This document shows, piece after piece, positions 8,299 to 20,375 of a DNA stretch of 64,000 nucleotides. Source of the stretch: Amycolatopsis sp. FBCC-B4732. Lineage in GTDB: Bacteria; Actinomycetota; Actinomycetes; Mycobacteriales; Pseudonocardiaceae. A program made the translations under genes and the position numbers. The notes below the pieces were generated by a model that was given only the letters and a program-made list of their open reading frames with translations, searched no databases and was not told the DNA's origin. Location: positions 7,792,501-7,856,500 of the forward strand of contig NZ_CP095376.1 of the NCBI RefSeq assembly GCF_023008405.1. Direction: 5' to 3'. How positions within the stretch are numbered: the first letter of the stretch is position 1; every line of letters starts with the position of its first letter.

Positions 8299-10290
8299 TC
8301 AGTTGACACGTGCGGCTCGCGACACGGATGGCGACCTAGGCGTCGATCCGGTGGCACCGGGAATCGTGTCCGGCTGACGGCCCACGGTGGCCGCGGAACC
8401 GCCGCCGGCAGGCGCCCCGCCGGCGGGAGCGGATCCACCGTCCACGATGGGACTCAGTGTGGTGTGACCGTTGCCGGTAGGCGCCCCGCCAACGGTCACA
8501 CCACCGCCCCCAGGCGAACCGGTCGAGGCATCCACCGGTTCACCACCTGCACCAGCAGGCGGGCGGGCACCGGTGGCCGCATGGTCGGGCACCGGTGTCG
8601 CCCAGGCCTGCATGAGCTCCGCGTACCTGGCCGAGCTGGCCACCAGCTCGGCGTGGCTGCCCACCGCGGTTTCGCGCCCGTCCACGACGAGCACACGATC
8701 CGCGCGCAGAGCCGAAGAAAGCCGGTGCGCGATCACCACCAGAACACCACCCCGCGCGGCGAAGGCCCGCTCCGCGCGAGCTTCCGCCACCGGGTCGAGA
8801 TGGGAGGTCGCTTCATCGAGGATCACCAATTGCGCCGAACTGGCGTACACCCTGGCCAACGCGAGCAGCTGCGCTTCGCCCGCGGAGACGCCTTCGCCGC
8901 CGTGACCGATCTCGGCGTCGAGGCCGCCCAAGCGCCGCAGTAGCGCGCCCGCGCCCACCGCGTCCGCGGCGGACGACAGCTCGTCGTCCGAAGCCGACGG
9001 GGCGAACAGGCTCACGTTGTCCCGCACCGTTCCCGCGAAGACGTACGCCTCCTGCGGGATCAGCGCCACGAGTTCGTGCCGCACGGCCGCGGGCACGTCC
9101 CGGACCGGGACGCCGCCCAGCAGCACCTGTCCTTCCTGCGGCGCGAGCATCCCGGTGAGCAAGCCGGCCAATGTCGACTTGCCGATGCCACTCGGCCCGA
9201 CGACGGCGAGGTGCTCCCCCGGCCGCAGCCCCAGGTCCAGACCACGGACCACGGGCTCGGCCGACGCACCCCAGCTGAACGTCAGGCCGCGCACCTGGAC
9301 GTCGGTTCCGCGCGGGGTCGCCGTACCGTCGACGACGTCGGGCAATTCGGCAGTCTCCGCCAACCGGCGAAGAGCCACGAGCAGGCGCAGGACGACGGTG
9401 CCGGCCGTGGCGGCCAAGCCGCGCAGTGCCGGTTGCATCGTCGTGGCCAGGTAGACGAGCGCGCCCAAAGCCGCGCCCGCGGTCAGCTCGCCGCTGACGA
9501 CCAGGCCCGGAGCCAGGGCGAGCGCGAGGAGCAGCGGAACGAACCCGCCGAGCGAGATCACCAGCGCTCGAAGGGCGCTCGAGCGCGCCACGCGGATTGC
9601 GGCCCGGGCTTGGGCGTCGACCGCGTCGTACATCGCCAGCGCGGCGATCGGCTGCGCGCCGCAAGCCACGATGTCGCGCATGCCAGACAGCGAGGCGCCG
9701 GCTGTTGCTGCCGTGTGCTCGTCGGCCAGTGCCAGCGCGCGCTGGCGGCGAGCCAGCGACGGCAGGAGGCAGGCGAAGACGACCAGCGCGCACACCACCG
9801 GGACCGCGACCGGCAGCACGAGCGCGCCGGCGACGGTCGCGAGGCCGGCGAGGGCGGACGCCGTCGTCACCAGCATGCCGCGGGCCTGGACGAGCAGGCC
9901 GGCGGTTGCGTCGCGGACGACCTCGACGTGCTGGGTGATCCGCGCGACGCCACTGGAGTCGGGTCGGTTGCGCGGTGGGGAGTCGTCGTGGAGGACGCCG
10001 CGGACGACCGCCGTCACGAGAGCGTCGCGGAGGGGTTCGATGACCGTGCCGAGCTGGTGCCAGACCATCCGGGCGCCGAACGCGCCGAGCACGGCGGCCA
10101 CGCCGAACAACGCCAGCCAGCCGAGGCCGGCGGCCGGGGCGCCGGCTGCAAAACCGCGGTCCACGGACAGCTCGACCAGCCGGCCCGAAAAGAACGCAGG
10201 GATGCCTTCCAGCAGCGAACACACCAGCAGCACCACACCGCCGCGCCATTGCGCGGCGAGGGCGGACCAGTACAACCGGCGCAGGCTCAC
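8299..10290 (-). CDS. Lanthipeptide ABC exporter half-transporter, second subunit (LanT-like)
   Basis: 663 residues. An N-terminal membrane domain with about six helices (roughly 15-290) is fused to an ATPase domain: Walker A GPSGIGKST (365-373), signature VSAGE (468-472, degenerate), Walker B LVILDEAT with catalytic Glu493, and an H-loop AHRLSS. After the ATPase there is a Gly/Pro/Ala/Thr-rich tail of about 98 residues (566-663) with no recognisable domain. GTG at 10290 overlaps the upstream ABC gene (GTGA), so the two are probably made together as a heterodimer that exports the lanthipeptide encoded at 12103-12246. Transcription is from the lanthipeptide promoter or from readthrough of the 12001 hairpin. 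Confidence 0.85.
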   Translation of the reverse strand: MSLRRLYWSALAAQWRGGVVLLVCSLLEGIPAFFSGRLVELSVDRGFAAGAPAAGLGWLALFGVAAVLGAFGARMVWHQLGTVIEPLRDALVTAVVRGVLHDDSPPRNRPDSSGVARITQHVEVVRDATAGLLVQARGMLVTTASALAGLATVAGALVLPVAVPVVCALVVFACLLPSLARRQRALALADEHTAATAGASLSGMRDIVACGAQPIAALAMYDAVDAQARAAIRVARSSALRALVISLGGFVPLLLALALAPGLVVSGELTAGAALGALVYLATTMQPALRGLAATAGTVVLRLLVALRRLAETAELPDVVDGTATPRGTDVQVRGLTFSWGASAEPVVRGLDLGLRPGEHLAVVGPSGIGKSTLAGLLTGMLAPQEGQVLLGGVPVRDVPAAVRHELVALIPQEAYVFAGTVRDNVSLFAPSASDDELSSAADAVGAGALLRRLGGLDAEIGHGGEGVSAGEAQLLALARVYASSAQLVILDEATSHLDPVAEARAERAFAARGGVLVVIAHRLSSALRADRVLVVDGRETAVGSHAELVASSARYAELMQAWATPVPDHAATGARPPAGAGGEPVDASTGSPGGGGVTVGGAPTGNGHTTLSPIVDGGSAPAGGAPAGGGSAATVGRQPDTIPGATGSTPRSPSVSRAARVN

Positions 10291-11954
10291 TCGTCGTCCT
10301 CCGTGAAGACACCGCGATAACCCGGCTCTCGCCACAGGGCGGCGTGCGGGGCGACCGCGCGGATGCGGCCCTCCTCCAGCCAGACCACCAGGTCGGCGCG
10401 GGCAGCTGTGCCGGCTCGATGGGTCACGACGACGCGCGTGCGTCCCGGCAGCGCGTCGGCCAAGGCGCGCTCGACCGCTGCCTCCGTGACCGTGTCGAGG
10501 CTGGCGGTGGCGTCGTCGAAGATCAGGACGCGTGGGTGGTGGACGATCGCCCGCGCGAGCCCGAGGCGCTGGGCCTCGCCGCCGGACAGGGGTGTCTCGG
10601 TCAGGAGCGTCCGGTAGCCCTCGGGGAGCCGGACGACCACCTCGTCGACCTGCGCTGTCCGGCAGGCGCTGCGGATGGCGGACTCGCCGGCCCACGAGCC
10701 GTAGCCGACCGCGTCCGCGACCGTCGTGCCGAGCAGGGTGGGGCGTTCGAAGGCGTAGCCGATGACCGCGCGCAGCTCCTCGGGGCGGATGCGCTCGAGC
10801 GGGCGGCCGTCGAGGAAGACTTGCCCCTCGTCCGGTGTGATCAGGCCGCCGAGCACCTCGGCCAGCACCGACTTGCCCGAGCCCGAGCGGCCGACGACCG
10901 CGAGGTACGTGCCGCCGTCGATGTGCAGGTCGATCTCCGCCAGGGCGCCCGTGACCCCGACGTGGCGGAGCTGCACCGTGCCGTCGCCGGGGAGGAGGGG
11001 GAGCTTGCCGGGTGCGGGTTCGGGCTCCTCGAGGACCTCGACGAGCCGCTCGGCGCAGCCGCGCGCCCGGGACAGCATCGTGAGCAACGGGATCTGGGTG
11101 ACCAGGCCGAGGGCGAGGGCGACGTAGCCGAGCGTGGCCACGACGTCGCCGACGCTCAACCGGCCTTCCAGCACCCCGAAGCCGGCGGCGGCCAGCACCG
11201 AAAGCTCGACCGCCGGGGTCAGCAGGCCGGCGCGCCAGACCATCCGGGCCTGGGTGCGCCACAGGCCCTGGCCGGCGAGCGTCAGCTTCGGCAGCGGGCG
11301 CAGGACTCGCGAGGCCTCCCGATCGGCCGTGCCGGACGCGGCGATCGTTCTGAGGCCGGCGACCGCGTCGACCATCCGGGCCGCGAGCTCGCCGGAAACC
11401 TGCTGGTACGTCAAGACGTCGTCGGCCGTGCGGCGGAGGTGGCTGCGGGCGAGCACCAGCGCGAACGGGATGCTTCCGAGGAAGACCAGCGCCAGCCGCC
11501 AGTCCAGCAGGGCGAGCAGAACGACGGCGCCCGACGAGATGACCAGCATCGAGCCGCACTGGACGACGATCGTGACGATGCCGCCCGCGCCCGTGCAATC
11601 TCCCGTGAGGCGGCTGATCGAGTCGCCCTCCGCGAAGCGGGTTCGGGCGCCCAGTGCGAACAGCTTGTCGGAGAGGGTGCGGCGCAGCCAGGCGGACGCC
11701 GTCGCGGTGAGGCGGGTCGTCAGGATTCCGCCCACGACGTCGGCGGCGATCTCCGCTCCGCCGACCACGAACAGCCGGAAGACCTCGGGGCCGGAAGGGC
11801 GGCCGGCGAGCACGGCGTCCACCGCCCCCGCGAGCGCGCTGGGCAAAAGCAGGCCCGCCGCGGTCGCGACCAGCGCGGTGACCACGACGGCCGCCAGGCG
11901 GAGGCGGTCGAGGCCGGCCACCTTGAGCAGCAGCCGATCGGCGGGGCCGCGCAT
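10287..11954 (-). CDS. Lanthipeptide ABC exporter half-transporter, first subunit
   Basis: 555 residues. A membrane domain (about 15-300) is followed by an ATPase domain: Walker A GRSGSGKSV (355-363), signature LSGGE (456-460), Walker B VLIFDDATASLD, where the catalytic Glu is Asp481, and an H-loop VTHRAG. This degenerate Walker B combines with the degenerate signature of the partner (8299-10290) to give one inactive and one active composite site, the usual pattern in heterodimeric ABC exporters. ATG at 11954 with AAGGAG upstream. It lies 148 bp after the lanthipeptide precursor gene, separated by a strong hairpin. Substrate inferred from location. Confidence 0.85.
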   Translation of the reverse strand: MRGPADRLLLKVAGLDRLRLAAVVVTALVATAAGLLLPSALAGAVDAVLAGRPSGPEVFRLFVVGGAEIAADVVGGILTTRLTATASAWLRRTLSDKLFALGARTRFAEGDSISRLTGDCTGAGGIVTIVVQCGSMLVISSGAVVLLALLDWRLALVFLGSIPFALVLARSHLRRTADDVLTYQQVSGELAARMVDAVAGLRTIAASGTADREASRVLRPLPKLTLAGQGLWRTQARMVWRAGLLTPAVELSVLAAAGFGVLEGRLSVGDVVATLGYVALALGLVTQIPLLTMLSRARGCAERLVEVLEEPEPAPGKLPLLPGDGTVQLRHVGVTGALAEIDLHIDGGTYLAVVGRSGSGKSVLAEVLGGLITPDEGQVFLDGRPLERIRPEELRAVIGYAFERPTLLGTTVADAVGYGSWAGESAIRSACRTAQVDEVVVRLPEGYRTLLTETPLSGGEAQRLGLARAIVHHPRVLIFDDATASLDTVTEAAVERALADALPGRTRVVVTHRAGTAARADLVVWLEEGRIRAVAPHAALWREPGYRGVFTEDDE

Positions 11955-12000: not shown

Positions 12001-12050
12001 TGAACGTGCGGGAGCGGCGCACTTGGCCTGTGCCGCTCCCGCACCGTTCA
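12001..12050. terminator. Strong hairpin between lanthipeptide precursor and transporter genes
   Basis: GTGCGGGAGCGGC (12006-12018) pairs perfectly with GCCGCTCCCGCAC (12032-12044); TGAAC and GTTCA extend the stem past one mismatch. Placed between the precursor and the ABC genes on the minus strand, it probably ends most transcripts or stabilises the 3' end of the precursor mRNA, so that far more precursor than transporter is made. Confidence 0.7.
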
Positions 12051-12079: not shown

Positions 12080-12117
12080 GATCAGCAGGAGGTCAGCCGA
12101 GATCAGCAGCAGGTCAG
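12080..12117 (-). repeat. 17-bp tandem repeat over the lanthipeptide stop codon
   Basis: GATCAGCAGGAGGTCAG (12080-12096) and GATCAGCAGCAGGTCAG (12101-12117) differ at one base and are 21 bp (seven codons) apart. On the coding strand each copy reads CTG ACC TSC TGC TGA, that is Leu-Thr-Cys/Ser-Cys-stop, so the duplication includes the stop codon of the precursor. Confidence 0.85.
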
Positions 12118-12246
12118 GAGGCTGAGCGTGCTGTGGGCGCACGCCGCGAGCAGGCTCAGGTTCGACGTGCCGCCGCCGTGACCGCCGTGACCGCCGTCGA
12201 GGACCTCGGGGGTCTCCATGGCCTGCAGCTCCAGAACGAGTTCCAT
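12103..12246 (-). CDS. Class III lanthipeptide precursor (SapB/AmfS-like)
   Basis: 47 residues, ATG at 12246 preceded by GGAAGGAA. The leader starts MELVLELQAMETPEVLDGG and contains the L-x-L-E-L-Q block used by class III synthetases to bind their substrate. A GGHGGHGGG linker joins it to the core TSNLSLLAACAHST (27-40) and LSLLTCC (41-47). The core has two S-x-x-S...C units, as in SapB, catenulipeptin and labyrinthopeptins: Ser28/Ser31/Cys36 and Ser39/Ser42/Cys46 or Cys47. Such peptides are dehydrated and cyclised to lanthionine or labionin rings; SapB-type products are surfactants that help aerial growth. The synthetase gene ends 39 bp upstream and two exporter genes follow. No dedicated regulator or leader peptidase is seen. 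Confidence 0.92.
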   Translation of the reverse strand: MELVLELQAMETPEVLDGGHGGHGGGTSNLSLLAACAHSTLSLLTCC

Positions 12247-12285
12247 CGATGTTCCTTCCTTCGGGTTTCCTTCGGGGTCCGCCGG

Positions 12286-14841
12286 TCAGCGACCGGAGGT
12301 CTGGGGGGACGGCGTGCCGCCCAGGAGGGGCAGCACCTCCTTGCCGTCCAGGAGGGCGGCGAGCGCGAGGAGGATTCCCGCGCCGCCGGTCTTGACGTCC
12401 ATCGACAGGCGCAGCAGCTGGTTGCCGGGGAACGCGAGGCCGCCCTTGAACGGGACCGCGTACCAGGCCAGGCGCGCGAGGTGCAGGTCGATCGCCGCGC
12501 GGATCGACGGCGACGGGTCCGGGTCCATGCCGAGCGCGACCGCCAGCCCGCACCGGCCGTAGAGCAGGCCCGGGTGGATGACGAACTCGCCGCGGCACGA
12601 CTCGCGCAGGGCGGGGAGGCTCTCGCAGGCTTCGGCGTCCGGGCGGTGCCGGGCCAGCTGCTCGGCGACCAGGAGGATGCCGGCGCTGCCGATGCCCGCG
12701 TACGGCAGTGTGCGGGCCGCGCCGTCGCGGACCTGCAGTGAGCCGTCGTCGGTCTCGACGCACTCCTCGAGGTCGCGCGTCAGCGCCTGGTCGGCGAAGG
12801 ACAGCCAAGCCGGCTCGCCGGTGCGCTCGAAGAGGCGGATGAACAGCAGCGCGGGCCCGGACCAGCCGGACAGCAGGCCGGCGCGGGCGAAGTTCCCCGG
12901 CGCCGCCGCCGTCTCCAGCGCCTCGGCCAGCCGGACGGCCGTGGTCAGCGCCTGGCGGCCGAACTCGTTGTCCTGGCGGACCGCCGCGAAGTGCAGCATC
13001 GCGAGCCCGATGCCGGCGAGGCCGCTTTCGAGGGCGTGGTCGGTCGTCTGCTCGACCAGCCGCGCGGACGACGCCAGCAGCCTCGTGGCCTCCTCGCGGT
13101 GGCCGAAGTTCTCCAGCACGTACGCGATGCCGTAGCTGCCGTCGTAGAAGCCGGGCCGGGTCGGCGGGTCCCGGCGGACCGCATCGATCAGCCAGCGCTC
13201 GTGCTCCGGGAACCGGCCGGCGCCGATGACGTCGAGGGCGTGCAGCACGCCCGCGGCGCCGACGCCGAAGCAGGCGCCGCCGACGCGGAACTGCTCGATG
13301 TCGCCGGGGAAGAGCCGGTCCTTGCGGGCCGGGGTCGCGCTGGCCAGGATCGCTTCGGCGATCTGCTTGCGGACCAGCGGCCAGTCCGGTTTCCGCTGGT
13401 CGAGCTCGGTGTGGACCGGTGATGGCGCCGCAGGGGCGGTGCGCGGAGCCAGCACCGCGACCGCGGCGTCGGCGTACCCCTCGGCGAGGCCGAACCGGCG
13501 TTCGACGAACTCCGCGATCCCGGGCAGCTTCGGCGGGGCGAGTTCCGTCAGCTGGGAGAGCGGCAGGAACAGCCACAGCCGCAACGCGGCGATCGCGTGC
13601 TCGTCGATCTCGAAGCCGGTGCGGTCGGCCGGGGCGCGGAAACCGGGTGCGCCCAGTGCCGGGCGGTCGCCGGACTCGACGTCGAAGGCCAGTTCGAAGT
13701 CGATCAGGGAGATCCGGCCGTCGTCGTCGACCAGGATGTTCAGCGGGTGCAGGTCGCCGAAGACGACGCCGCGGGCGTGGATGGCCTCGATCGCCCTCTC
13801 GACGCCGTCAACGATGTCGAGCGCGCGCCGGGCGTAGTCGGCGAGGTCGGCCTCGGTGATGTCTCGCCTGGTCAGCGGGTAGTTGCGGGCCAGCCAGTTG
13901 CCCAGCGAGGTGCCCGGCATGTACTCCATGGCCAGGTAGTGGTGCTCCCAGACGGTGAACCGCTCGAGGGCCCGCGGCACGCCGGGCACGCCGGCCAGCC
14001 GGTCGAGGACGTCGTGCTCGCGGCGGAGGCGTTCGACGGCGTCGGTCCCCGCCTTGTCGAGGCCGGCGTGCGGGCGGGCTTCCTTGAGGACGATCTGCTC
14101 GCCGCCCGCCTTGGGCTCGGCGAGGTAGACGCCGCCGCCGTTCGAGAAGTGGAGGGACCTCGTCACCCGGTAGTGGAATTGAGCCGGGTCGCCGGCCTTG
14201 CGCGCGGCCACGCTGCTCCGCAAACACGCCGGAATTTTCACCCAATCGGGGACGGAGAACGTCGGCTCCCGCTTGTCGGGGACGAGCCGGCCGTCCGGCT
14301 TGCGGATCGCCAGGACGCGGTTGCCGTCGTGTTCGACCCACTGTTCGGCGAATCCGCCGTAACGCACGTAGAGCGGCCCGTCGCCGTATCGCAGGTCGCT
14401 CAGGACATAGGCACCGTGCTCGCCCTCGAGCCGCGCCGAGAGGTCTTCGAGAACCCGTTCGAGCTGCCTGTCGTCCGCCGGGTAAATCGTCACCAGCTTG
14501 GCGCTGCCGTCCCGCGGCGCGTATTTCGAATTCCGGGCGAGCAGGGTCAGCATCGAGCGGAGGTGCTTGTACGAGACGCGGTGCTCGAGGCAGTACTCGT
14601 GCACCTGCTCGAGGACCCGGCGGGCGTTGTCCAGACCCGCGGAGACGTGGATTTTCCAGCCCTGAGCGGGAAGAACCTGCCCCCGGGGGTGCAGCGCGCG
14701 CCAGACGCCGCGCTCGGCGCTCACCCAGCCTGCCGGCGCCGGCAGCGCCGAAGCGAAATCGTCGACCGGCGCGCCGATTTCCGGTTGTTCGTCGTAGAAC
14801 AACGGGTCGGCGAAGCAATAAGCTTCGTAGCGCTGGTCCAT
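12286..14841 (-). CDS. Class III lanthionine synthetase (LanKC, RamC/LabKC-like)
   Basis: 851 residues, normal length. An N-terminal phospho-Ser/Thr lyase domain (about 1-210) is followed by a Ser/Thr kinase domain (about 220-480; VLKEA Lys253, VVFGDLHPLNILV with Asp363 and Asn368, SLIDFE Asp381) and a C-terminal LanC-like cyclase domain (about 530-845; VGAAGVLHALD, GFYDGSYGIAYVLENFG, HPGLLYGRCGLAVALG). The Cys-Cys-His zinc ligands of class I/II cyclases are not obvious, as expected for class III. It phosphorylates, dehydrates and cyclises the precursor at 12103-12246. ATG at 14841; the leftward transcription unit lanKC-precursor-ABC-ABC starts here. Confidence 0.95.
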   Translation of the reverse strand: MDQRYEAYCFADPLFYDEQPEIGAPVDDFASALPAPAGWVSAERGVWRALHPRGQVLPAQGWKIHVSAGLDNARRVLEQVHEYCLEHRVSYKHLRSMLTLLARNSKYAPRDGSAKLVTIYPADDRQLERVLEDLSARLEGEHGAYVLSDLRYGDGPLYVRYGGFAEQWVEHDGNRVLAIRKPDGRLVPDKREPTFSVPDWVKIPACLRSSVAARKAGDPAQFHYRVTRSLHFSNGGGVYLAEPKAGGEQIVLKEARPHAGLDKAGTDAVERLRREHDVLDRLAGVPGVPRALERFTVWEHHYLAMEYMPGTSLGNWLARNYPLTRRDITEADLADYARRALDIVDGVERAIEAIHARGVVFGDLHPLNILVDDDGRISLIDFELAFDVESGDRPALGAPGFRAPADRTGFEIDEHAIAALRLWLFLPLSQLTELAPPKLPGIAEFVERRFGLAEGYADAAVAVLAPRTAPAAPSPVHTELDQRKPDWPLVRKQIAEAILASATPARKDRLFPGDIEQFRVGGACFGVGAAGVLHALDVIGAGRFPEHERWLIDAVRRDPPTRPGFYDGSYGIAYVLENFGHREEATRLLASSARLVEQTTDHALESGLAGIGLAMLHFAAVRQDNEFGRQALTTAVRLAEALETAAAPGNFARAGLLSGWSGPALLFIRLFERTGEPAWLSFADQALTRDLEECVETDDGSLQVRDGAARTLPYAGIGSAGILLVAEQLARHRPDAEACESLPALRESCRGEFVIHPGLLYGRCGLAVALGMDPDPSPSIRAAIDLHLARLAWYAVPFKGGLAFPGNQLLRLSMDVKTGGAGILLALAALLDGKEVLPLLGGTPSPQTSGR

Positions 14842-15288
14842 CCGGGATACCCCTCCGTGCGATCCCCCGGGGCGCCGCGGCCCCGGGACGAGGAATATTC
14901 CCCCATGCCGAACGGCCCTGGGCCAATCCGCCAACACGGGGGTTCAACTGGGCTATCCGAGGTAGGCAAAAAGGTCGCTTACCAGCCGGTATCGGAACTG
15001 AGGGTTATTTTTACGAGGCAGCCCACCACTCCGTAGTGGTGTAACACGAAGCTTTTTACGACATTCACCCAGGTCCACCTCAGTACCGGGCGGAATGCGC
15101 CGCCGAATTGGCAGAATGCCATCAAGGCGCCGCGGTGATCAAATAACCCGATGGCCGCGATTCGCGTGACCACCGGATCGTCCACAGTGGAGCACGACGT
15201 GGCCCGCGCCACGCCGCGGCACCTCGGCGGGCGGACCGCCCGGTTCCACGGAGTAAGTTGGCGCCCGGCGGAGCGGAAGGAGGAACGG
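14842..15288. other. Divergent intergenic region upstream of lanKC
   Basis: No credible gene in these 447 bp. It must hold the lanKC promoter on the minus strand and that of the membrane-protein pair on the plus strand. The middle (14990-15065) is unusually AT-rich for this genome. It contains the palindrome at 15024-15041 and a GTCCACAGTGGA palindrome at 15180-15191 of the kind that recurs in the window. No LuxR-type ramR/amfR regulator is encoded nearby. Confidence 0.5.
15024..15041. promoter_or_regulatory. Palindrome in lanKC upstream region (candidate operator)
   Basis: CACCACT-CCGT-AGTGGTG, perfect 7-bp arms, in the AT-rich part of the lanKC upstream region about 185 bp before its start. 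It could be an operator or a short RNA hairpin; the binding protein is unknown. Confidence 0.35.
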
Positions 15289-15654
15289 GTGATCTTCGGA
15301 TTCGCCGTGACGGTCGCCGTGGCGGCCGCGCTCGTCGCGCTCTGGAGCTTCCTCCAGTCCGCGCGCAACCGGCTGCCGGACAACCCGCTCCTGATCGCGC
15401 TCGCAGTCCTCGAGCTGCTGCTGGTCGCCCAGCTGGTGATCGGCATCGTGCTGCTCGCGGGCGGTGACCGCCCCGGCAGCCTGGCGACCTACCTGGCCTA
15501 CCTGATCGGCAGCCTGGTCGTGCTGCCGGTCGGCGCCGCCTGGGCGCTGGCCGAGCGGAGCCGCTCGAGCACGGCGGTGCTGGGCATCGCCTGCCTGGCC
15601 ATCCCGGTGATGGTGCTGCGACTGAACGAGGTGTGGAGTGGAGCAACGGCGTAG
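15289..15654 (+). CDS. Integral membrane protein of unknown function
   Basis: 121 residues. GTG at 15289 is preceded by AAGGAGG. Four hydrophobic segments fit transmembrane helices: FGFAVTVAVAAALVALW, LIALAVLELLLVAQLVIG, TYLAYLIGSLVVLPVG and STAVLGIACLAIPVMVL. No catalytic motif and no family I can name. Overlaps the next membrane gene by 17 bp, so they form an operon. It is divergent from lanKC; a link to the lanthipeptide is not shown by the sequence. Confidence 0.75.
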   Translation: MIFGFAVTVAVAAALVALWSFLQSARNRLPDNPLLIALAVLELLLVAQLVIGIVLLAGGDRPGSLATYLAYLIGSLVVLPVGAAWALAERSRSSTAVLGIACLAIPVMVLRLNEVWSGATA

Positions 15655-16048
15655 GACGGCCACCGGCCCCGGACGCGTGCTCGTCGCCGTGTACGCGATC
15701 TTCGCGCTGGCCGCGACGTCGCGGGCCGGCGTCCAGATCGGCACCAAGTTCCACGAAGCCCCGCTCGCGTACCTGCTCTCGGCGTTCGCCGCGGTCGTCT
15801 ACATCGTCGCGACGATCGCGCTGGCCCGCCGCGGCGACGGCTGGTGGCGCGTGGCCCTCGTGGCCTGCTCGATCGAGCTGCTGGGTGTGCTGACCATCGG
15901 CACGCTGAGCCTGGTCGACGCGGCCGCCTTCCGGCACCCGACCGTCTGGTCGGTCTACGGCGAGGGCTACCTGTTCATCCCGCTCGTCCTGCCGGTCATC
16001 GGCCTCTACTGGCTGCGCAAGTCCGCGCCCGCCAAGGTCGCGGCGTAA
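15638..16048 (+). CDS. Integral membrane protein of unknown function
   Basis: 136 residues, GTG start inside the end of the previous gene. About four membrane segments (VLVAVYAIFALAATS, LLSAFAAVVYIVATIAL, VALVACSIELLGVLTIG, YLFIPLVLPVIGLYWL). It resembles actinobacterial small membrane proteins of unknown role that often sit in pairs. Probably co-translated with the gene at 15289 and may form a hetero-oligomer with it (inference). Confidence 0.75.
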   Translation: MEQRRRTATGPGRVLVAVYAIFALAATSRAGVQIGTKFHEAPLAYLLSAFAAVVYIVATIALARRGDGWWRVALVACSIELLGVLTIGTLSLVDAAAFRHPTVWSVYGEGYLFIPLVLPVIGLYWLRKSAPAKVAA

Positions 16049-16210: not shown

Positions 16211-16927
16211 GTGAAATTCGGCAAGTTCGTCCTGCTGGCCGCGAGCACCGCACTGGCCGTCGTCGGCCTCGGCGGTCCCGCGTCCGCCCAGACCACCCCG
16301 CAGGCCCAGCCGTCGATCATCGGCGGCAGCACCGCCACGAGCGGCCCCTGGGCGGCCCGGCTGTTCGTGAACGGCCAGCAGAACTGCACCGCGACGATCA
16401 TCGCGCCGCAGTACATCCTCACCGCCAAGCACTGCGTCAGCAGCTCCGGCACCTACACGTTCCGGATCGGCAGCCTGGACCAGACCAGCGGCGGCACGAC
16501 GGCCACCGGCTCCACCATCACGCGCTACCCGGGCTCCGCCGACCTGGCGATCGTCAAGCTCACGACCTCGGTCAGCGCGACGTACTCGCCGCTCGGCAAC
16601 GTCGGTGACGTCGCGGTCGGGCAGAACGTCTCGGTCTACGGCTGGGGCGCGACCAGCCAGTGCGGCTCCGAGATCAACTGCCAGTCGCGGTACCTGAAGG
16701 TCGCGACGGTCCGGGTCAACTCGATCGGCTGCAGCGACTACACCGGCGGCGTCGCGGTCTGCGCGAACCGCGTCAACGGCATCACCGCCGGCGGCGACTC
16801 GGGCGGCCCGATGTTCGCTTCCGGCCGCCAGGTCGGGGTCGCCTCGACCAGCGACCGGTCGAACAACACCGCGTACACGAACATCACGCGTTATCGCAGC
16901 TGGATTTCCCAGGTGGCCGGGGTCTGA
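16211..16927 (+). CDS. Secreted trypsin-like serine protease (S1 family)
   Basis: 238 residues. Signal peptide 1-26 (ends GGPASAQ), short propeptide, then mature enzyme from IIGGS at residue 36, which implies zymogen activation. The catalytic triad is complete: His74 in LTAKHC, Asp111 in SADLAIVKL, Ser197 in GGDSGGP. Secreted endopeptidase. GTG at 16211 with AAGGAG upstream. One of three S1 proteases within 4.2 kb, all sharing the SIIGGSTA or EIIGGTTA mature start, probably paralogues. A terminator hairpin follows. Confidence 0.93.
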   Translation: MKFGKFVLLAASTALAVVGLGGPASAQTTPQAQPSIIGGSTATSGPWAARLFVNGQQNCTATIIAPQYILTAKHCVSSSGTYTFRIGSLDQTSGGTTATGSTITRYPGSADLAIVKLTTSVSATYSPLGNVGDVAVGQNVSVYGWGATSQCGSEINCQSRYLKVATVRVNSIGCSDYTGGVAVCANRVNGITAGGDSGGPMFASGRQVGVASTSDRSNNTAYTNITRYRSWISQVAGV

Positions 16928-19610: not shown

Positions 19611-20375
19611 TCAGACCCCGCTGACCTGGCGGATCCAGTTGCGACCCGCCGCGACGCTGCCGTAGGTGGTGGTGCTGGACCGGTCGCTGGTCGAGCACAC
19701 GCCGACCTGGACACCGCCGTCGAGCATCGGGCCGCCCGAGTCGCCGCCGGCGACCGCGCCGTTCGGGGTGGCCGCTTCGATCGCCGGCCCGCCGAAGTAG
19801 TCGCTGGCACCGGTGTCGGAGATCTCCACCGACGCCTGCTTCAGCACGCTCGACTGGTGGCTGCCCTCGTCGGTGGACTGGGTCGCGCCCCAGCCGTAGA
19901 CGCGGGCGGCGTCACCCTCGTTCGCGTCCGACGAGCTCGACGCGAGCCTCGCGAAAGTGCTGCCCCCGTTGGTGTTCAGCTTGATCAGGGCCAGGTCGCC
20001 GCCCGAGTACAGGTAGGTCGACGACGCTTTCGCGTGCACGCCACCGGAAGCGCTGTTCGATCCGACGTAGAGGTCGATGTCGGACAGGCGCTGCCCGTTG
20101 TTGTCGTACATGCAGTGCTTGGCGGTCAGGACCCAGCGCGCGCCGATCAGCGTGCTGGTGCAGAAGAACGTGTAACCGTTGGCGTGGCCGTTGAACCGGG
20201 TGATGTAGCCGGGGTTCTGCGCGGTGCTGCCGCCGATGATCGACGGCTGCGCGTCGGGCGAGAGCGGCGCGACCGGGGCGGCCGACGCGGGGGCGGCGGC
20301 GAGCGTCGCGAACACGGCGCAGGAACCGGCGAGCACAGCGGCGGCGCGGACGAAGCGGCCGGGGTTTTCACGCAT
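19611..20375 (-). CDS. Secreted trypsin-like serine protease (S1 family)
   Basis: 254 residues. Signal peptide 1-33 (ends AAPASAAP), propeptide to IIGGS at 46. Triad: His87 (LTAKHC), Asp127 (GGDLALIKL), Ser213 (AGGDSGGP). It resembles the protease at 16211 closely in the TAKHC and DRSS/DRSN end regions, suggesting duplication with inversion. First gene of a two-gene leftward operon. The 282 bp upstream (20376-20657) carry no other gene and should hold divergent promoters. Confidence 0.92.
   Translation of the reverse strand: MRENPGRFVRAAAVLAGSCAVFATLAAAPASAAPVAPLSPDAQPSIIGGSTAQNPGYITRFNGHANGYTFFCTSTLIGARWVLTAKHCMYDNNGQRLSDIDLYVGSNSASGGVHAKASSTYLYSGGDLALIKLNTNGGSTFARLASSSSDANEGDAARVYGWGATQSTDEGSHQSSVLKQASVEISDTGASDYFGGPAIEAATPNGAVAGGDSGGPMLDGGVQVGVCSTSDRSSTTTYGSVAAGRNWIRQVSGV

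Follow-up and report, generated by a model that had tools for sequence, protein, structure and literature searches.

The locus raises the question whether a class III lanthipeptide operon of Amycolatopsis represents a new type of system. A sequence-only reading had regarded its precursor as uncharacterised, pointing to the core, to a Gly-His linker and to missing regulator and peptidase genes. We analysed a stretch of 64,000 nucleotides (here called the window) from a host genome that consists of a single contig of 10.19 Mb. The operon is an Amycolatopsis erythreapeptin-type member of the SapB/AmfS class III family and as such ordinary, and the reasons for novelty given by that reading do not hold up. 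What is new here, and carries the interest, is a hairpin between lanA and ABC1 together with a clade of LanKC synthetases that lack a precursor.

Gene order and synthetase

The order lanKC, lanA, ABC1, ABC2 (Table 1) had been read correctly from the sequence, as coordinates and family scores agree with it, and with a synthetase, a precursor and two exporters it is that of a SapB/AmfS operon. The ABC2 and ABC1 genes overlap by 4 nt, and all four genes would be expressed as one transcript. A domain scan found no peptidase domain in ABC1.

Table 1. Features of the operon with their positions in the window, and loci of precursor-less LanKC proteins in other Amycolatopsis genomes.
Feature	Position	Strand	Description
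lanKC	12286..14841	minus	class III lanthionine synthetase, 851 aa, ATG start; lyase, kinase and LanC-like cyclase
lanA	12103..12246	minus	SapB/AmfS-family precursor, 47 aa, MELVLELQAMETPEVLDGGHGGHGGGTSNLSLLAACAHSTLSLLTCC
hairpin in the lanA/ABC1 gap	12006..12044	minus	16 pairs (one an A-C mismatch here), 7-nt loop GGCCAAG
ABC1	10287..11954	minus	exporter, 555 aa; permease and ATPase fused; PF00664, PF00005
ABC2	8299..10290	minus	exporter, 663 aa; PF00664, PF00005 (residues from 10179 on)
precursor-less loci			L043, L045, L054, L074, L077-L079, L082-L088, L101-L107

With 1050 bits in NF038151 (cut-off 575), the model of class III, LanKC is assigned to this class; the class IV LanL model NF038150 gave 358.5 bits, below its cut-off of 650, and class IV was rejected. 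PF25816 (RamC_N), Pkinase and LANC_like domains were identified by profile search, and relatives with solved structures include 8sao and 9wop. The usual zinc motifs of LanC proteins are W-C-x-G and C-H. At these places LanKC has LSGWSG and LLYGRCGLA, and neither motif was seen when reading the sequence. The protein is present as a single copy in its genome, where seven other matches are weak and cover only the kinase part.

For regulators and peptidases we scanned 14 hand-picked ORFs between positions 352 and 24629 and two other frames. Neither a ramR-type regulator nor a convincing peptidase was found among these 14 neighbouring ORFs, which bears out the earlier reading; serine-protease-like signals from ORF 16211-16927 (MamO, 24.6 bits against a cut-off of 800) and ORF 19611-20375 (MarP, 16.2 bits against a cut-off of 250) were weak. 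As a sign of novelty the missing regulator and clustered peptidase were rejected, because such an absence is usual according to the accessible text of three studies (PMC10885120, PMC4255298, PMC8960859).

Next to lanKC the window contains, at 15151-16048, two overlapping divergent ORFs which are membrane-protein-like and have no Pfam or NCBIfam match. This pair adjoins lanKC in 20 out of 26 Amycolatopsis loci.

The precursor and its known relatives

Two family models recognise LanA above their cut-offs, NF033212 with 57.2 bits (cut-off 25) and PF19402, RamS, with 56.9 bits (cut-off 24.3). With these cut-offs passed, and that of NF038151 by LanKC, the assignment as a 47-residue precursor of the class III, SapB-like type is supported. 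The precursor comprises the leader block LVLELQ, the Gly-His linker, two S-x2-S-x(3-4)-C motifs and an extra C-terminal Cys. In an alignment of 13 precursors the ring residues S28, S31, C36, S39, S42 and C46 are invariant. A protein search found 37 relatives of lanA with 52-93% identity; all of those with an organism name belong to Amycolatopsis, and most end in SLLTCH.

The loci and the protein search together yielded 59 distinct precursors, a tally in which not every one of the 65 lanA-bearing genomes of the genus is represented. Their tail is Cys-His in 42 and Cys-Tyr in seven; unlike these other Amycolatopsis SapB/AmfS precursors the window peptide ends in Cys, and this final Cys-Cys (1/59) is its only unique trait. 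Directly after the stop codon, at 12080-12096, a 17-nt repeat of the lanA end (12101-12117) is located with 16 of 17 positions identical, which may have a bearing on the origin of the unique Cys-Cys. A different, His-rich precursor type with an altered first ring motif, for example DHHGHSHYSAYCGDSTLSLLLCY, occurs at L047-L052 (A. rubida group), where LanKC shows 69-70% identity.

Erythreapeptin from Saccharopolyspora erythraea, a class III peptide reportedly first described by Voller in 2012, has the same precursor shape with both S-x2-S-x(3-4)-C motifs. The sequence which we take to be its precursor, used as a query, found a best database match of 98%, and an exact copy exists at L155 in the same bacterial family; there, LanKC and ABC1 matches and a hairpin after lanA are present as in the window. 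The window core differs from that of erythreapeptin by S to A, N to H, V to L and final H to C, and the linker GGHGGHGGG stands in place of GDPSHGGG. The claim of a new core is supported only weakly: the core is not identical to that of erythreapeptin, but 16 out of 20 positions are shared with the erythreapeptin precursor. As far as the available text of the two papers goes, erythreapeptin clusters were predicted for 21 Amycolatopsis strains (PMC5859366), and erythreapeptin-like clusters including precursor variants were compared across Saccharopolyspora (PMC11162802).

SapB (ram cluster of Streptomyces coelicolor) and AmfS share the NF033212 and PF19402 families with the window precursor, and the accessible part of PMC4255298 describes the same adjacent synthetase, precursor and two transporter genes. 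In contrast to the ram cluster, the window has no adjacent ramR among the ORFs scanned, and the core differs. An adjacent regulator of this type is reported only from streptomycetes in that part of the source (PMC4255298).

Distribution in Amycolatopsis

Among 80 Amycolatopsis genomes, one per species, 78 encode LanKC (E<=1e-60) and 64 a lanA found by protein search, to which the family model added G073 (65 genomes). The 15 genomes without lanA are G005 and G037, both without LanKC at E<=1e-60, G021, with a 49% LanKC match, a partial one and weak lanA-like matches, and 12 genomes which possess LanKC. With LanKC in 78 and lanA in 65 of 80 species the system resembles a trait of the whole genus more than an antibiotic of scattered occurrence; as lanA was not found in 15 of them, the peptide seems dispensable in some species. 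The lanKC gene of G031 (C1:2240126-2242688) is split into two overlapping frames (1-437, 433-851) with lanA adjoining, either by a frameshift or by a sequencing error.

A conserved hairpin between lanA and ABC1

The 39-nt stem-loop in the lanA/ABC1 gap, which the sequence-only reading had missed, occurs at one place in its own genome (up to 3 mismatches), and a 71-nt piece containing it has a folding energy of -46.8 kcal/mol. A pattern for its 27-nt core, again with up to 3 mismatches, matched 61 out of 80 genomes of the genus; each has a single match apart from G036, which carries the core on two contig ends. All matches fall on lanA-bearing genomes (61/65 versus 0/15), and a reversed control pattern had no match in all 80. 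The four lanA-bearing genomes missed by the pattern are G016, G033, G045 and G048, the last of which was found by a covariance model; this model also gave a weaker match in the precursor-less G051 (E 2.3e-5) which does not adjoin a lanA. In 105 loci from overlapping sets the distance from the lanA stop to the start of the core is 13-214 nt, and 64 nt in the window. A dispersed repeat was rejected because of the single place in the own genome and the empty reversed control. A known Rfam family was rejected as well, since all four Rfam hits stayed far below the gathering score and none was above chance. In the open-access literature, judged by title and abstract, we found no description of the hairpin.

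Across 54 distinct sequences from the genus, 94.7% of the cells of the 16-pair helix are paired, a value leaning towards structure because a script admitted only rows that had a loop motif and folded at less than -30 kcal/mol; six pairs are changed on both sides. None of 500 shuffles reached this helix pairing together with the double changes; further pair types were not above the shuffles (304/500). Of the 46 unpaired cells 43 represent one A-C mismatch, which is G-C or A-U in other species. A second set of 27 rows, with 15 from outside the genus found by a model that holds the structure and 12 hand-picked from the 54, likewise leans towards structure; here 97.2% of the cells are paired, seven pairs are changed on both sides, and 0/500 shuffles match on all five measures. 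The same paired variants (GAACGG..CCGTTC, GGCGC..GCGCC, GGCAC..GTGCC) were returned by a pattern search blind to pairing.

Beyond the genus, covariance model R1 matched 90 of 249 genomes of the family, own genus included, and 21 of 200 in an order-level search (E<=0.01 in both). We inspected 20 of these loci (15 from the family and five from the order search): in 16, which belong to ten further genera of this family, the hairpin lies just downstream of a SapB/AmfS-type lanA; L163 (G051), L164 and L165 are not beside a lanA, and L157 is near a contig end and was left unscored. R1 matches beyond these 20 are mostly weaker. At class level, model R2 matched ten of 394 genomes (E<=0.001), including the own genome and one of the same family. 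The nine matches outside the own genome have no cluster protein within about 1.5 kb of flank and were treated as background, so that in this sample there is no convincing copy outside the family and, in contrast to the window, no hairpin beside SapB/AmfS cluster genes. It is also absent from seven LanKC loci of Streptomyces and Frankia and from ten precursor-less loci of seven genomes.

A clade of LanKC proteins without precursor

In twelve species (G023, G029, G039, G043, G050, G051, G054, G056, G064, G065, G075, G077) LanKC is an open frame of 853-860 aa with 73-79% identity to the window LanKC, and no lanA follows. Elsewhere in these genomes the lanA protein search and the family model found no lanA above cut-off. 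Seven of them (G029, G051, G054, G056, G064, G065, G075) have the neighbours of the window on both flanks, with lanA, ABC1 and ABC2 missing in between. For the other five about 1.5 kb per side was examined: o15151 is upstream and ABC1 absent in all five, and ABC1 was present in each of six lanA-bearing loci compared alongside. Downstream of LanKC in G023 (L087, 4315-4503) 63 residues that match ABC2 at 44% identity are probably the relic of a lost exporter. At L043, L045 and L054 the stretch replacing lanA and the exporters appears by eye to contain many short GC repeats (GGCGCCTTCCGGCGACGGG-like).

In a tree of 33 LanKC proteins (the 12 precursor-less and 21 with lanA, the split G031 protein being left out) the 12 form one clade (100/100) that branches from among lanA-bearing species with a stem length of 0.10. 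A tree of flanking genes, in which seven of the 12 are included, did not group these seven together; with good support for only 3 of its 14 inner branches, it neither supports nor rejects a single loss. Compared with the window, LanKC of these seven species is 73-79% and the flanking proteins are 86-98% identical. Residues invariant in the 21 lanA-bearing proteins are broken by the 12 in 16.9% of the lyase, 15.1% of the kinase and 3.7% of the cyclase cells. R110 and K115, both retained in an alignment with the distant solved relative 9wop, are lost in all 12, and at least one of the kinase residues K253, D363, N368 and D381 is changed in six.

A decaying pseudogene is disfavoured by the full-length frames: neutral drift would be expected to leave about 30 stops per typical pair (214 stop-capable single-base changes, median pS 0.329, without bias correction), and none was seen. 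Median pairwise dN/dS (Nei-Gojobori) of the whole protein is 0.267 for the precursor-less proteins versus 0.260 for the rest, and by domain 0.296 versus 0.178 (lyase), 0.371 versus 0.365 (kinase) and 0.174 versus 0.242 (cyclase), values that include 19 of the 21 lanA-bearing proteins (L047 and L050 dropped) and are rough because the genes are high in GC and the pairs not independent. Judged from these sequence patterns, LanKC might have a second, lanthipeptide-independent job, or its seed, and in this clade it might have been repurposed as a pseudo-synthetase, perhaps as a developmental scaffold that binds peptides or proteins. We propose the repurposing tentatively, giving it slightly less than an even chance, as half of the proteins keep all four kinase residues, a precursor of another type could be located elsewhere in the 12 genomes, and the clade is not seen in the flank tree. 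A search of titles and abstracts found no description of an orphan or pseudo LanKC of this kind.

Proposed biosynthesis and alternative explanations

We consider it very probable that the locus as a whole is an erythreapeptin-type operon for a ringed, exported morphogen matured by an unlinked protease, with the hairpin as a partial terminator or 3' stabiliser. By analogy to the family, LanKC would bind the LVLELQ leader, phosphorylate Ser28, Ser31, Ser39 and Ser42 and then eliminate the phosphates. Two labionin or lanthionine rings would be closed with Cys36 and Cys46, in keeping with the conserved ring residues, and Cys47 probably stays a free thiol. With four waters lost, the calculated [M+H]+ is 1948.944 for a core that begins at Ser28 and 2049.992 for one that begins at Thr27. 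The two ABC proteins are predicted to export the peptide, and leader and linker may be removed by an unlinked protease of the M1/AplP or the FlaP type followed by aminopeptidase trimming. Seven M1-peptidase matches above cut-off are present elsewhere in the genome; certainty about the M1/AplP type is reduced by FlaP-like proteases, which the available text of PMC8960859 ties to FlaA-type precursors in Amycolatopsis.

The host is a soil bacterium, and peptides of this kind assist hyphae in growing into the air. With about 20 residues and a hydrophobic character, the mature peptide would probably act as a surfactant morphogen for aerial hyphae. That it is instead an antimicrobial lantibiotic is unlikely, even if the accessible text of two papers terms erythreapeptin a lantibiotic (PMC5859366, PMC11162802): the presence in most species of the genus and the SapB/AmfS family membership fit a developmental role (PMC4255298, in the part available), and no immunity gene was noticed among the neighbouring ORFs scanned. 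About as unlikely is a functional metal-binding or protease-recognition element in the Gly-His linker which would make a distinct lanthipeptide type. Counted from residue 17 onward, the linker has His in 51 of 53 distinct SNLS-core precursors of Amycolatopsis, the other two carry His at residue 16, one before the cut, and the A. rubida group has DHHGHSH. However, the number of His residues ranges from none (two precursors) to one (31), two (14), three (4) and four (2), the linker length varies too, a Gly-His linker is expected to drift as low-complexity sequence, and L155, whose precursor is identical to that of erythreapeptin, has only one His in the linker. Such variation speaks against the idea of the sequence-only reading that the His residues could form a fixed site for a metal or for cleavage, and the linker was dropped as a novelty. 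It does differ from the erythreapeptin linker, but P0005 carries an identical one and His-Gly linkers are usual in the genus.

For the hairpin our best guess is that it sets the precursor above the exporter: as a partial terminator or 3' stabiliser in the mRNA it would allow much lanA and little exporter message. An RNA element is favoured by its position downstream of lanA, by the transcribed strand scoring higher and by the asymmetric loop. Covariation alone cannot separate an RNA hairpin from a DNA dyad, as a DNA-binding dyad would likewise show symmetric changes; both strands score (69.4 bits transcribed versus 45.3 bits), and in the inner stem the letters themselves are conserved, beyond their pairing. 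Actinobacterial terminators often have no U-tract, and only a weak T-run follows the hairpin. The competing reading, in which the hairpin is a dyad for DNA binding or an ordinary actinobacterial terminator and has no further role, is a serious one, and we put its chances a little below one half. The asymmetric loop is nearly invariant inside the genus, and the inner stem letters are invariant in 27 sequences from eleven genera, beyond the need of a plain terminator, although the outside rows were found by a model that weighs sequence.

The peptide itself is one more member of a family already predicted in many Amycolatopsis. If expressed, the precursor-less LanKC would offer a natural example of a lanthipeptide synthetase that has become a pseudo-enzyme, and with it the chance to learn what the presumably zinc-free cyclase domain is capable of by itself. 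The hairpin is a precise and testable candidate for what sets precursor against exporter levels in the SapB-type operons of this bacterial family.
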